From an uncultured Prochlorococcus sp. (lineage in GTDB: Bacteria > Cyanobacteriota > Cyanobacteriia > PCC-6307 > Cyanobiaceae): a DNA stretch of 64,000 nt. The translations under genes were made by a program, and so were the position numbers. This document shows positions 32,116-36,250 of the stretch, piece by piece. Each line of letters opens with the position of its first letter. The stretch's first letter is position 1. Location of the stretch: positions 1-64,000 of the forward strand of contig CACGER010000003.1 of assembly GCA_902572075.1 (NCBI GenBank). The letters are read 5' to 3'. The notes beneath the pieces were generated by a model, which was given only the letters and a program-made list of their open reading frames with translations, was not told the DNA's origin and did no database searches.

Positions 32116-33144
32116 ATGAAATTAAAGAATTATTTAAAAAGGCTATTTTTTACTTCAGTGACATTATCGCTACTTCTAAATAATCAACCTGTAAATTCTG
32201 CAGAGAAAGAGGTTAGGTTATTTTCTGGTAGACATTACAATACAGATAAAGAGGTTTATCAAAAATTTCAAGAACAAACTGGCATCAAAGTTAGATATAT
32301 AGAAACAGATGGAAAAGCTATAATTGAGCGCTTAAAAAGAGAGGGTAAAAATTCTCAGGCTGATTTAGTAATTCTTGTTGATGCAGCAAGAATTGAAAAT
32401 GCATCAAAGGCAAATTTATTTCAAAAAATTAATTCAAATATTCTAGAAAATAGTGTTCCAAATAATTTAAGAGATCCTAGAAATAAATGGTTTGGCCTTA
32501 CTAGGCGATTAAGGGTAATCATCACAAATCCGGATATTGTGGATATTACAAAAATCAAAAATTTTGAGGATCTAACCAATCCTTCTTTTAAAGGAAAAGT
32601 ATGTCTAAGAAATAGAAAAAGTCCTTATAATCAATCTTTGGTTTCTAATCAAATAGCAAAGAAAGGCGTTGGCCAAACAAAAATTTGGCTTAAGGGTTTG
32701 ATATCAAATGTCTCCACTCCCTATTTTTCTGGAGATTCTTCATTAATAAGAGCTGTAGGGCAGGGAACGTGCGGTATTGGAATCGTTAATCAATATTATG
32801 TCGCAAGGATGCTTGATGGAGTTAAAGGCCCAAGAGATGCTTCTTTAGCAGAAAAAATAAAATTAATAATACCCAATCCTGCGCATGTAAATATAACTGC
32901 TGGGGGCATATATAAATATGCAGAAAACAAGACTGAGGCTATTAAACTTCTTGAATATTTAGCTTCTAGTGAAGGTAGTCAAGGTTTAGCTAATAAAACT
33001 TATGAGCACCCTTTAAAGGAATCAAGTCAAAATAGAATTGTTAGTAAATTTGGAGATTTCACTCCAGATAATGTGACTATAAAAGAAATTGGCAAATTCA
33101 ATAGTAAGGCAATAGAAATAATGAAAGAAACTGGTTGGAATTAA
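32116..33144 (+). CDS. futA: Periplasmic ferric-iron-binding protein of an ABC transporter
   Basis: A 342-residue substrate-binding protein of the FutA/IdiA/FbpA family. An N-terminal signal peptide (about residues 1-29) is followed by VRLFSGRHYNTDKEVYQKF, with the first iron-binding tyrosine. Near residue 235 is NQYYVARML, containing the C-lobe tyrosine pair. Other family segments are GKVCLRNRKSPYNQSLVSNQ (about 162-181) and HVNITAGGIYKYAEN. It should bind Fe3+ in the periplasm; some cyanobacterial homologues also protect photosystem II. The permease and ATPase genes are not next to it. It precedes tRNA-Ser and an accessory region. Confidence 0.95.
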   Translation: MKLKNYLKRLFFTSVTLSLLLNNQPVNSAEKEVRLFSGRHYNTDKEVYQKFQEQTGIKVRYIETDGKAIIERLKREGKNSQADLVILVDAARIENASKANLFQKINSNILENSVPNNLRDPRNKWFGLTRRLRVIITNPDIVDITKIKNFEDLTNPSFKGKVCLRNRKSPYNQSLVSNQIAKKGVGQTKIWLKGLISNVSTPYFSGDSSLIRAVGQGTCGIGIVNQYYVARMLDGVKGPRDASLAEKIKLIIPNPAHVNITAGGIYKYAENKTEAIKLLEYLASSEGSQGLANKTYEHPLKESSQNRIVSKFGDFTPDNVTIKEIGKFNSKAIEIMKETGWN

Positions 33145-33198: not shown

Positions 33199-33283
33199 GG
33201 AGAGGTGGCTGAGTGGTCGAAAGCGAACGACTCGAAATCGTTTAATAGGTAACTATTCGTGGGTTCGAATCCCACCCTCTCCG
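33199..33283 (+). tRNA. tRNA-Ser (anticodon CGA)
   Basis: A class II tRNA with a 7-bp acceptor GGAGAGG/CCTCTCC (one end base-paired through the terminal positions), D arm, an anticodon arm AACGA-CTCGAAA-TCGTT with anticodon CGA, a long variable arm (TAATAGGTAACTATTC) and T arm GTGGG-TTCGAAT-CCCAC. CCA is not encoded. Its 3' end points into the accessory region that starts immediately after it. A degenerate copy of its last 24 bases occurs at 35064-35087. Confidence 0.96.
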
Positions 33284-33720
33284 TAATACACCAATTTTGC
33301 ATGCAGACTTATGGTGTTATAAGATCTCCAATTAGACTGCAATTACAGGATAGTTGAGAAAAATACTTATGGTCAGATAACTTTTTGATTTTGAAATATA
33401 AGGTATTTCTAGGGAAAATATGGGTAATAAATAAGTGGTACATGTTTTATTTCCATGGGGTATGAAAAGCACCCATGGGGTACATAAAAATACCAGTGCG
33501 ATTTCAGCAATTTAGGAGATAGTTCAAGTGACACCTTCTTATGATGGGGGACAAGAAATTTTGATGTGGTACAGAATATTTTGATGGGGTTTATTGGTTG
33601 ACAGTTGATCTAAAATTTAGAATATACATCTATTTTATATGGTTTATTTAGGTGATATTTAGAGAACGCGAGAATGATATAGACTTTCAGTTACATCAAA
33701 TTTCAAAATTTTTTTCGGAC
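33284..33720 (+). other. Non-coding DNA between tRNA-Ser and the lyase gene
   Basis: About 440 bases without a convincing gene. The striking content is a set of G-rich 12-mers at 33431-33593 (separate entry). The rest is mixed-composition DNA, visibly less AT-rich than the neighbouring core gaps. An in-frame TTG-started extension of the lyase gene begins at 33652, but it precedes the signal peptide and is not considered coding. Confidence 0.6.
33431..33593 (+). repeat. Direct repeats (iterons) with 20-bp spacing, probable integrase arm sites
   Basis: Six related 12-mers start at 33431 (ATAAGTGGTACA), 33453 (CCATGGGGTATG), 33473 (CCATGGGGTACA), 33542 (TGATGGGGGACA), 33562 (TGATGTGGTACA) and 33582 (TGATGGGGTTTA). 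The consensus is close to NNATGGGGTACA. Starts 33453/33473 and 33542/33562/33582 are exactly 20 bp apart, so the copies lie on one face of the helix. Repeated TGGGGTACA-type elements next to a tRNA 3' end resemble arm-type binding sites of P4-like tyrosine recombinases. No recombinase gene is present nearby. Confidence 0.6.
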
Positions 33721-34665
33721 ATGAAAAAACTTGTATACCTTTTTCTCATATTGATGTGTTTTACCAGTGGTAATTCATACTCATGGGAAAAGGTACCTGT
33801 TCCAGACTCTGTAGATAAAAAAACAAAATCCCCTTGGAATTTCTTTGAGGACTTTGAAAATGAAAATGTAGGAAGATTGACAACCAATAAATTTACGACT
33901 AACGATAAGGGTACAGGTCTCAAACCATTTGAAATTAAAGAAGACCCTGATGGTAATACCTATCTTGCAGTGACAGTAAAAGATGGATGGAATGTTGATC
34001 AGAAAGGGTGGACAAAGGAAACAACTGAAAGAGCAGAATTTGAGGTCAAACCCAAAAGAGTATTAGGTAAAGAAATATGGATCAGTTTCAAAAAGAGACT
34101 TCCAGAGGATTTTACTCATATCGACGACAGAGTATTATTTTTTCAATTCAAAAATATGATATCAACAGGAAAAGTCAGTCCTCTGATAGGATTACGTTAT
34201 AAAAAAAATGGAAATAGATTAAAAATAGGAGGACAGACCGGAGGAAATGCACGTCGATCTATGAGTCAAAAGGAAAAGGACCTTTATCGTATTGATACAA
34301 AGTATAAAAACTATGAAGGAAATTGGGTTCAAAGATGGGAAAAGTTCAGAAGTCAATATAAAGACAGAGATGTTGATGGTACAGCAAAAGTGACTCCATT
34401 AGGGGAATGGAGTACATATAAGATTGGAATCTATAATACAAGAGATAACGATGGTTTTGTCAGAGTCTATAAGGATGGGGAATTGATATTTGATTATAAT
34501 GGTGTCACTTATGATTGGCGTGGAAAGTATTATCAAAGTCATATCAGACTTGGTGTCTATCGAGATCGAGTAGTTGGAGTGAGTTACCCCGACCAAACGA
34601 TTCACTTTGATGATTTCATTGTTGTTTCAGATGAAAAGACTTTAGATCAGATACTCGCCAAATAG
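33721..34665 (+). CDS. Secreted polysaccharide lyase (heparin lyase I/PL-like, PF14099 type)
   Basis: A 314-residue protein from the ATG at 33721, chosen because it begins MKKLVYLFLILMCFTSG, a good signal peptide; the longer TTG-started frame (33652) would bury it. The mature part is beta-rich. Around residue 100 TTERAEFEVKPK matches the E-R-x-E-F/L motif of PF14099-type lyases (families such as PL13, PL14 and PL20), followed by EIWISFKKRLPEDF. Near the end SHIRLGVYRDRV matches the family's (F/R)-K-x-G-(I/V)-Y-R strand. It should be exported and cut an anionic polysaccharide by beta-elimination. It stands alone beside tRNA-Ser in DNA of different composition, so it was probably acquired. Substrate (glucuronan, alginate, other) is unknown, and a non-catalytic binding role is possible. 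Confidence 0.7.
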   Translation: MKKLVYLFLILMCFTSGNSYSWEKVPVPDSVDKKTKSPWNFFEDFENENVGRLTTNKFTTNDKGTGLKPFEIKEDPDGNTYLAVTVKDGWNVDQKGWTKETTERAEFEVKPKRVLGKEIWISFKKRLPEDFTHIDDRVLFFQFKNMISTGKVSPLIGLRYKKNGNRLKIGGQTGGNARRSMSQKEKDLYRIDTKYKNYEGNWVQRWEKFRSQYKDRDVDGTAKVTPLGEWSTYKIGIYNTRDNDGFVRVYKDGELIFDYNGVTYDWRGKYYQSHIRLGVYRDRVVGVSYPDQTIHFDDFIVVSDEKTLDQILAK

Positions 34666-34876
34666 TCTGCGATCTTTTGATGAGCAGGTTCAAGTGGGTG
34701 TTTCTCGGTCGTGTTGATAAAGTGTTTTATTGCAGTTCTAATCATGATTTCTCAGATAGAAATGTTTATATTTTTTGATTGATTTCTTATCTTTACTGTC
34801 GGAAAGTAATAGATTATTCTTTTTATAAAGAACTTGAAAATAGTCAGACTTAGATTCCAATATAGTAGCATACAAA

Positions 34877-34899
34877 CTCAGTTATATCAAAGAACTGAG
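34877..34899. repeat. Inverted repeat, 7-bp stem
   Basis: CTCAGTT (34877-34883) pairs with AACTGAG (34893-34899) around a 9-nt loop. It lies about 210 nt beyond the lyase stop codon and lacks a T-run, so it is not an obvious terminator. Confidence 0.4.
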
Positions 34900-34943
34900 G
34901 GAATTTAGAGTATTATTTTAGCGTTCCCTAACACCTAAAAAAG

Positions 34944-34972
34944 TGTTATTTTTGGGGGAATACAAAATAACA
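34944..34972. repeat. Inverted repeat, 9-bp stem
   Basis: TGTTATTTT (34944-34952) and AAAATAACA (34964-34972) pair perfectly around TGGGGGAATAC. It is followed by TTTTCC and preceded by an A-run, so it could end transcription on either strand, although the stem itself is AT-rich. Confidence 0.45.
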
Positions 34973-35063
34973 TTTTCCGATTTGGTGTTGTAGAAAATGG
35001 AGTCTTTTTCAGCAGTTTGATCTTTTATTTCTAAGATTACTGATGAATACTGGGGTCAATTCT

Positions 35064-35087
35064 GAGTTCAGATTACACCCTTTCCGT
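35064..35087 (+). repeat. Degenerate copy of the tRNA-Ser 3' end (candidate att site)
   Basis: These 24 bases match the last 24 bases of the tRNA-Ser gene region (33261-33284) at 18 positions. The final 12 bases, CACCCTTTCCGT, match at 11 of 12. They are in the same orientation, about 1.8 kb downstream of the tRNA, as expected for the distal attachment site of an element integrated at the tRNA 3' end. Divergence implies an old event or chance similarity. Confidence 0.42.
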
Positions 35088-35198
35088 TTTAATAGGATAA
35101 TTAGGAATCTTAATTTTTTGATTTTTTATTCAAATTGCAGTGATAAATAAGAGTTCTAAGAAATATCAATTTATGTATAGTTGGTTTTAATTTTATGT

Positions 35199-35274
35199 GT
35201 GTTGGTGGATGTGTTGGTGGATATTTTTAATGTGTTGGTGGGTATGTTTTTGACAAGGTTTGGTGTTGGTAGAT
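35199..35274 (+). repeat. Four GTGTTGGTGGAT-type direct repeats
   Basis: Copies start at 35199 (GTGTTGGTGGAT), 35211 (identical), 35232 (GTGTTGGTGGGT) and 35263 (GTGTTGGTAGAT). Two copies are directly abutting and the spacing then widens. They lie just outside the candidate distal att site. The short G/T-rich unit and the irregular spacing resemble integrase arm sites of a second type and not a CRISPR array or a coding repeat. Confidence 0.5.
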
Positions 35275-35339
35275 TCCTCAAGATCACTTGTTATTAAATG
35301 AGTTTTTCAGATTCTTCTGGAGGAAAGAAGGTATCACCT

Positions 35340-35570
35340 TCAGTTAATTTTCTTCTCAAACTCTTTATATGAAGATTGCATTTGACCTGAATTTTCTACT
35401 AGATCATCTTTATCTAAACCTCTTATTTTTCTCCATCTTGAATACATATATCCAAGATAGATTCCTTGCATAAAGTTTTTTGCTCCATGTTCTAGAAGAT
35501 TTTTTGAAAATTTATCATTAAATTTTCCACTTTCTAATAATTCTTTCTGCCAGTTTATGTTTTCTGTCAT
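35340..35570 (-). CDS. Small hypothetical protein of the accessory region
   Basis: A 76-residue protein beginning MTENINWQKELLESGKFNDK, with a helical, charged composition and the segment AKNFMQGIYLGYMYSRWRK (about residues 30-48). No family recognised. Its ATG overlaps the stop of the preceding small ORF (35567-35704) by four bases (ATGA), so it is likely translated by coupling. Compact coupled genes like this are common in cyanophages and their satellites, but that origin is an inference. Confidence 0.5.
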   Translation of the reverse strand: MTENINWQKELLESGKFNDKFSKNLLEHGAKNFMQGIYLGYMYSRWRKIRGLDKDDLVENSGQMQSSYKEFEKKIN

Positions 35571-35751
35571 TGCTGTTGCTGTTCCTCCTGTATTTTCTTC
35601 AGTCTTTCGTATTCATCATTTAGAACTCCTAAGCGCCATGAATCTTTTAATCCTTTTATACCATCCATTAAGTGTTTTGCATCTGAAGGAGAACGTGACT
35701 TCATGTGTAAGAAATTTTCTGCCAAAATTTGTCATCCCATTTAGTGCTCAT
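35567..35751 (-). pseudogene. Small gene apparently split by a one-base frameshift
   Basis: Two minus-strand frames abut: 35751-35701 (16 codons, MSTKWDDKFWQKISYT) and 35704-35567 (45 codons, starting MKSRSPSDAKHLMDGIKGLK). The second frame is open further upstream, reading LAENFLH before its ATG. Adding one base to the four-T run (plus-strand A's at 35724-35727) would join them as a 61-residue protein running ...WDDKFLAENFLHMKSRSP..., which reads as a single folded sequence. Its TGA overlaps the next gene's ATG. Either the gene is broken, the second frame alone is used, or the base is a sequencing error. Confidence 0.45.
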
Positions 35752-35798
35752 ACTTTCTCTGTATACTTTTTGAATTCATCAAAAGTGATTTTAATCAT
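35748..35798 (-). CDS. 16-codon ORF coupled to the frameshifted gene
   Basis: MIKITFDEFKKYTEKV followed by TGA, whose ATGA overlaps the start of the next small frame. It is too short to support alone; it is recorded because the chain of three ATGA overlaps (35750, 35703 and 35569) is unusual. It may be a leader peptide or the remnant of a larger gene. Confidence 0.25.
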   Translation of the reverse strand: MIKITFDEFKKYTEKV

Positions 35799-35881
35799 TA
35801 TCGTTTGAATAAGAAATAGTATGTTTTACCTTATAAGTATAGTTTTTCTAACAAAAAGTATTAATAAAAGTGAAATAAACA

Positions 35882-36091: not shown

Positions 36092-36250
36092 ATGAGACTC
36101 ACCACTCCATTAACTGCCCTAAGAAATGCAACTTCAGATATTTGGAGAATGCATGATTTTAACTATCAACTTCCTCAAGATCATAGACAAGGTTATTGGG
36201 AAAAAGAATGCATAGACCACCCAACAAGTTCTCATTGCAAAGTTTACTAA
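36092..36250 (+). CDS. 52-residue protein with a CP12-like C-terminal tail
   Basis: A small protein beginning MRLTTPLTALRNATSDIWRM and ending KECIDHPTSSHCKVY. The end follows C-x3-P-x4-C-x2-Y, the same spacing as the C-terminal, GAPDH-binding, redox-active loop of CP12 (CxxxPxxxxCxxY). The CP12 N-terminal cysteine pair and helix are absent. It may be a free-standing CP12-tail microprotein able to form a disulfide, or an unrelated family with convergent ends. A strong Shine-Dalgarno (36081-36087) precedes it and a hairpin terminator (36275-36297) follows, so it looks like a complete, independently expressed unit. Confidence 0.65.
   Translation: MRLTTPLTALRNATSDIWRMHDFNYQLPQDHRQGYWEKECIDHPTSSHCKVY

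Follow-up and report, generated by a model that had tools for sequence, protein, structure and literature searches.

The tRNA-Ser(CGA) locus

We analysed a 64,000-nucleotide stretch of Prochlorococcus DNA (the window), in which 2.6 kb of extra DNA lie between the gene for tRNA-Ser(CGA) and the core right flank, which resumes at 35873. The extra DNA consists of two units. The comparison set comprised 266 Prochlorococcus genomes, and the tRNA-Ser(CGA) locus was taken from 31 other genomes. The features of the region are as follows.

33199–33283, plus strand: tRNA-Ser(CGA), the integration target (ARAGORN), on the attL side
33284–35086, plus strand: element 1, complete and recombinase-less, 1803 bp (from shared termini and empty sites)
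33435–33594, plus strand: left arm-type repeats, six copies arranged as two triplets (L037, L152 and L153 have copies too)
about 33596/33598–33631, plus strand: promoter-like sequence upstream of the lyase gene, TTGACAGTTGATCTAAAATTTAGAATATAC / GGTTGACAGTTGATCTAAAATTTAG
33721–34665, plus strand: cargo gene, secreted-type polysaccharide lyase of 314 aa, PF14099 (Pfam)
34983–35004, plus strand: right arm-type repeat pair, degenerate in the window (TGGTGTTGTAGAAAATGGAGTC), well formed as ATGTGGTACAAAATGGGGTT in L152/L153
35063–35086, plus strand: attR, a partial copy of the tRNA 3' end, with its core CACCCTTTCCG at 35076–35086
35087–35872, no strand assigned: element 2, truncated, with a left terminus at 35087, four arm repeats and two ORFs
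35340–35570 and 35567–35725, minus strand: the ORFs of element 2
36092–36250, plus strand: conserved 52-aa ORF of the right flank, which marks the end of the inserted DNA (from the spacing in relatives)

An earlier reading of this DNA, made from its letters only (the sequence-only reading), had proposed an integrative element at the 3' end of this tRNA gene, with arm-type repeats, a lyase as cargo and no recombinase, and the comparisons described below support that proposal. It had also pointed out that, 1.8 kb downstream, the 3' end of the tRNA recurs as a degenerate 24-nt copy. The copy is indeed identical to the tRNA at 18 of 24 positions, but it starts at 35063 rather than 35064, and 10 rather than 11 of its final 12 nt match. 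The match withstands a comparison with shuffled sequence: in 1,000 first-order Markov shuffles of the 1.9-kb and 3-kb stretches, 18/24 was never reached, and the mean best match was 12.8–13.3.

The duplicated core corresponds to the last 11 nt of the tRNA (CACCCTCTCCG, 33273–33283), of which one base is altered from C to T in the window copy. An exact search pattern, DCACCCTCTCCGT, was composed of the attR core and the non-tRNA base preceding it, so that it counts the copy and excludes the tRNA itself. It occurs 74 times in 61 of the 266 genomes, as opposed to 3 times for its reversed form. In all 31 compared loci the sequences start to diverge no more than 5 nt past the 3' end of the tRNA.

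Ends, empty sites and occupied sites

In the closest relatives, L031, L032 and L033, which match the window at 100% identity starting 199 bp upstream and continuing to the end of the tRNA, the tRNA runs straight into the right flank, and the conserved 52-aa ORF lies about 250 bp from the tRNA, compared to 2.8 kb in the window. Strains with such an empty site had been predicted. The breakpoints have to be corrected, however: element 1 ends at 33284 and 35086, and the insertion relative to the closest relatives extends to about 35872 because the truncated element 2 follows element 1.

The left terminus, TAATACACCAATTTTGCATGC, is found directly after the tRNA in the window and directly after the attR of another element in L150. 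The first 46 bp past the tRNA of the window are likewise found next to the tRNA in L151, L156, L157 and L158, and this left end differs from that of the window by at most 1–2 changes in L150, L151 and L156–L158. At the other end, the sequence from 34666 to 35086 is 90–98% identical to that of G552, G553, G462, G027, G502 and G460, and the match breaks off at 35087–35090 in all six, which makes the attR copy the exact common right end in seven genomes. These shared left and right termini define element 1. Among its copies, the first 46 bp (33284–33329) are strongly variable, and the next 370 bp are nearly identical and constant in length.

Insertion is exact to the base. In L149, L151 and L152, the attR is followed by TTAATTTATCGTTTCTGGAAGTCCCAATAATAAAATAAGA, as is the tRNA in the empty L031, and the 40 nt past the attR in these three loci (TTAATTTATCGTTTCTGGAAGTCCC...) are the 40 nt past the tRNA in L031. 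Likewise, L049 has next to its tRNA the sequence that borders the element on its right side in L037, and in L053 the same two points are separated by a type I restriction-modification element of 7.5 kb. The window and L037 (genome G027) are 92–100% identical at the element ends, but only 62–80% identical in the gene upstream of the tRNA and 41–71% identical just beyond the attR (35086), which argues that the element travelled apart from its flanks. In L153, element 1 is second in line, distant from the tRNA, between two attR copies. A recombinase-less form of 1.7–1.8 kb with both ends is present at tRNA-Ser(CGA) in six other genomes and in several right-hand contexts, and hence the compact form itself appears to be the unit that spread.

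Element 2 carries four GTGTTGGTGGAT-type arm repeats at 35199, 35211, 35232 and 35263. Their offsets from 35087 (112, 124, 145 and 176) are the canonical left-end offsets of other elements. An attR belonging to element 2 was looked for and not found. Six loci (L042, L043, L049, L053, L055 and L060) have this module but no lyase, and among the compared loci only that of G027 (L037) is collinear with the whole 2.6 kb. A single insertion ending at 35872 was considered and dropped, since 35087 is a second left terminus with repeats of its own. It is in this truncated element 2 that the region is truly decayed.

Other loci show further variation. In L057, about 4,663 bp past the tRNA, an attR copy is followed by AGTCTTATGCAC instead of the usual flank, the junction being at GCCCTCTTCG, which in this flank is a look-alike of the tRNA core; it is possible that a secondary site was used and that the sequence in between was lost. 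Very short units lie between the tRNA and an attR copy in L044 (261 bp), L061 (263 bp) and L057 (281 bp), and they contain little beyond the two ends. On the other side of the tRNA, the gene for a solute-binding protein (32116–33144) has two alleles, of which one shares about 99% identity with that of the window and the other about 64%, and glyQ is about 1.9 kb nearer to the tRNA in the window-type allele. Upstream of tRNA-Ser(CGA), too, an allele or segment appears to have been replaced.

The lyase and its occurrence at other tRNA genes

The lone clear gene between the tRNA and the attR starts with the ATG at 33721 and ends with the stop codon at 34665. Its assignment as a polysaccharide lyase, the single cargo gene of the sequence-only reading, is borne out by a match to PF14099 (Polysacc_lyase; E = 8.8e-16, 58.8 bits, above the cut-off of 29.9). 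A secreted enzyme of this kind would cut extracellular or cell-surface polysaccharide. The lyase has no family in PHROGs, and a search of phage records and viral contigs for it returned nothing. A sequence search against solved structures gave only weak matches to designed proteins, which we took as chance. In the promoter-like stretch upstream of the gene, 24–27 bp recur in roughly 50 of the 266 genomes, and in the genomes inspected they precede other, unrelated ORFs.

One-gene lyase elements are also found at other tRNA genes. Six genomes carry one of 1404–1440 bp at tRNA-Ser(GCT) (L226–L229, L233 and L238), with 11–12 of 12 nt of the tRNA 3' end duplicated at the far side, and one genome, G015 (L095), carries one of 1491 bp at tRNA-Asn(GTT). 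From 33784 to 34583, the lyase gene of the window is 97–100% identical in nucleotide sequence to that of the tRNA-Ser(GCT) element of L226, as against 54–99%, mostly 73–93%, to the Ser(CGA) copies. The ends of element 1, however, match those of the Ser(CGA) elements and not those of the Ser(GCT) elements. The cargo has thus been exchanged between elements with different tRNA addresses.

Relatives of the lyase with 46–61% identity occur in single cells of Pelagibacteraceae. In L245, one is found 268 bp after tRNA-Leu(GAG), and a repeat with a 12-bp spacing, GACTTCATTGAG, is present upstream of the relatives in L244, L245, L249, L279, L282 and L283. These sequences suggest similar elements in SAR11, but L245 yielded no attR, so that the evidence for SAR11 is no more than suggestive.

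Arm repeats

The helically spaced repeats noted earlier beside the tRNA are real. Copies of GTGGTACA, or of an ATGKGGTA-like sequence, lie at 33435, 33455, 33475, 33543, 33563 and 33583, with a spacing of about 20 bp within each triplet. The right pair of the lyase element is degenerate in the window, L037, L150 and L151, and formed in L152 and L153. Most elements share a fixed geometry: an element-specific pair lies about 104 and about 92 bp before the right end, and matching repeats lie about 112 and about 124 bp, and further, inside the left end. A combined arm score exceeded those of all 60 shuffles for most recombinase-bearing elements as well as for the Ser(GCT) and Asn(GTT) minis, and these scores are descriptive, as the test was chosen after the pattern had been seen. 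The window copy scored no better than the shuffles, and the same element in L152/L153 has the pair. Given the degenerate right pair and the C-to-T change in the attR core, the window copy may itself be immobile now.

As a check, the sequence-only reading had named intact elements with the repeats of element 1 and a tyrosine recombinase; none was found among the elements compared. The right arm repeats of the recombinase-bearing neighbour in L150 differ from those of element 1. At tRNA-Ser(GCT), the repeats of the recombinase-bearing L207, GGGGATGAAAT, are similar to those of the minis, AGGGGATAAAT, a likeness that is no more than suggestive of a helper. In L049, L057 and L154, the left and right ends have repeats of different types, and these are apparently hybrid elements that arose by fusion or deletion across neighbours.

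Recombinases and other occupants

No recombinase is encoded between 33284 and 35086, and none of the tycheposon type was found in the window's own genome (a 70% complete assembly). This genome has a 389-aa recombinase, which is present in most genomes searched. Recombinase-bearing elements were detected in 22 of the 266 genomes by similarity to the 415-aa recombinase of L150 (E ≤ 1e-20), a count that misses more divergent recombinases. Those at tRNA-Ser(GCT), tRNA-Asn(GTT), tRNA-Ser(TGA) and tRNA-Ser(CGA) have their recombinase gene at the far end, reading towards the tRNA. In their attR, the last 11–12 nt of the tRNA are exact and the remainder is degenerate, the overall match being typically 17–19/24. 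The 18/24 match of the window is therefore the ordinary form, and we dropped the idea that it is a sign of decay.

In L150 (genome G553), the element lies directly behind the recombinase gene and the attR of the element with the 415-aa tyrosine recombinase. By a comparison of coordinates, G492 and G553 are the only genomes in which a copy of the exact attR pattern has an L150-family recombinase at a distance of about 2 kb or less. A different layout is seen in L222 and L223, in which a tyrosine recombinase gene starts 188 bp after tRNA-Ser(CGA) in the same direction, unlike the recombinases at the far end. The recombinase-less neighbours at tRNA-Ser(CGA) carry TPR, trypsin-like, 2OG-Fe(II) oxygenase, type I restriction-modification and MrcB-like cargo. 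Neither the element junction nor the left arms were found in viral contigs, and no excised circle, attP junction or reactivation of an empty site was observed.

Origin and mobility of the element

The most likely explanation, to which we assign a probability of about 0.8, is that 33284–35086 is an intact non-autonomous mini-tycheposon, similar to a CIME, that uses the recombinase of another element. Its exact ends, empty sites, base-exact insertions, tandem stacking and cargo exchange, as well as the lack of a recombinase of its own, are established at the level of sequence; from these we infer mobility and a supply of the recombinase in trans. A tyrosine recombinase would recognize the two ends, each composed of a core resembling the tRNA 3' end and of arm-type repeats. 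It would be encoded by another element, at times by an adjacent one, as in L150. The CACCCTCTCCG core of the circular element would be joined to the identical 11 nt of the tRNA, and the predicted attP junction is …CAGATKACACCCTCTCCG joined to TAATACACC…. Such joining would keep the tRNA intact and put the partial copy at the far side, and newer elements would land between the tRNA and the older ones.

The sequence-only reading regarded the element as decayed, with the lyase as its surviving cargo. In a full version of this alternative, a larger tycheposon would have lost its own recombinase by deletion, and the lyase would now be fixed in place. The missing recombinase, the degenerate right arm pair and altered attR core of the window copy, the truncated element at 35087–35872 and the left-end remnants that lack an attR in L155–L158 are all in agreement with such a history. 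A fixed remnant, however, would not yield the distribution that we find, in which the both-ended form recurs in six other genomes, in several right contexts and with a clean insertion into an empty site, and two other tRNA genes harbour independent elements of comparable size with one gene each. Decay is thus a fitting description of the right arm repeats, the attR core base and element 2, but, given the ordinary attR and the compact form in other genomes, mostly a wrong one for the element as a whole, and its origin as a remnant is improbable.

It is even less probable that homologous recombination between the conserved flanks, the tRNA and the right flank, shuffles the island and that the repeat was left behind by an old integration. 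In favour of this process, the flanks are sufficiently conserved to permit homologous exchange, recombination within the lyase gene has clearly swapped its sequence, and copies differ in the left 46 bp. Against it stand junctions that coincide to the base, at both the tRNA end and the attR end, with unrelated contents between them, and the tandem position of element 1 away from the tRNA in L153. A chance 24-nt match in ordinary strain-variable intergenic DNA might be suspected from a score of only 18/24 in an AT-rich region, but this reading is already refuted by the comparisons: the shuffles never reached that score, the exact attR pattern outnumbers its reversed form by 74 to 3 in the 266 genomes, and the copy is the exact right end common to seven genomes.

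tRNA genes are known sites of island turnover in Prochlorococcus. In the mobile mini-tycheposon favoured here, what turns over is one gene flanked by two short ends, and the transition from an empty to an occupied site can be traced base by base across single-cell genomes. Exact attR copies are many and recombinases few (74 copies at this tRNA core, but just two genomes in which an L150-family recombinase is nearby). Were helpers to act in trans, the bulk of the flexible genes at the site would depend on a minority of recombinase-carrying cells. Furthermore, elements without a recombinase can be annotated directly from the conserved arm geometry and matched to helpers through their repeat sequence. 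A broader proposal, which we put forward as a speculation with less than even odds, is that the tRNA 3' ends of Prochlorococcus, and perhaps of SAR11, form an integron-like platform for recombinase-less one-gene cassettes. Such cassettes would have element-specific arm repeats in a fixed geometry, would be moved by the recombinases of other elements, would pass cargo to cassettes for other tRNA genes and would spread between tRNA sites and phyla.

Comparison with known systems

Tycheposons, reportedly the subject of Hackl et al. 2023, have a distinctive tyrosine recombinase as their hallmark. The region resembles them in its host genus, in its integration at a tRNA 3' end and in the placement of cargo between the tRNA and a partial copy of that end. 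The recombinase-bearing elements at tRNA-Ser(GCT), tRNA-Asn(GTT), tRNA-Ser(TGA) and tRNA-Ser(CGA) share its attR style and, as seen in the copies of L152 and L153 but degenerate in the window, its right arm geometry. However, element 1 has 1803 bp and one gene, and it is without a tyrosine recombinase of the tycheposon type. Tycheposons are 4–200 kb in size (PMC10872708), and as element 1 has neither this size nor a recombinase of its own, we do not file it as a full member.

CIMEs and the ssrA islands of Dehalococcoides, in which recombinase-less islands are stacked at one RNA gene (PMC3146451), are similar in having functional-looking att sites but no integration module, and in their tandem arrangement with recombinase-bearing elements. 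Like a CIME, element 1 is bounded by att sites and has no recombination or transfer genes; a tandem with a recombinase-encoding element is present in L150 (G553) and not in the window, and mobilization by the neighbouring element would be the corresponding step here. Accretion-driven transfer belongs to CIMEs, whereas the tandem placement described here is read from sequence. Dehalococcoides relies on the serine recombinase family and element 1, by our account, on a tyrosine recombinase; moreover, element 1 has a single gene, and the same cargo is found in elements for three tRNA targets.

Integron gene cassettes and CALINs (PMC11389934) likewise combine one gene with a recombination site, are arrayed beside a fixed site and use a recombinase in trans, but the sites here are a tRNA 3' end and arm repeats rather than attI/attC, and there is no integron integrase. 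MITEs, too, are small and non-autonomous, and they share their ends with larger helpers. Element 1, however, is site-specific at tRNA genes and has protein-coding cargo, and no terminal inverted repeats were seen in it.

In summary, the recombinase-less islands at one RNA gene in Dehalococcoides (PMC3146451) mean that the principle is already known. As far as the compared literature shows, with Hackl et al. 2023 outside the comparison and priority accordingly uncertain, the new aspects are the one-gene size, the recurrence of the same gene at three tRNA addresses and the swapping of cargo among the elements.
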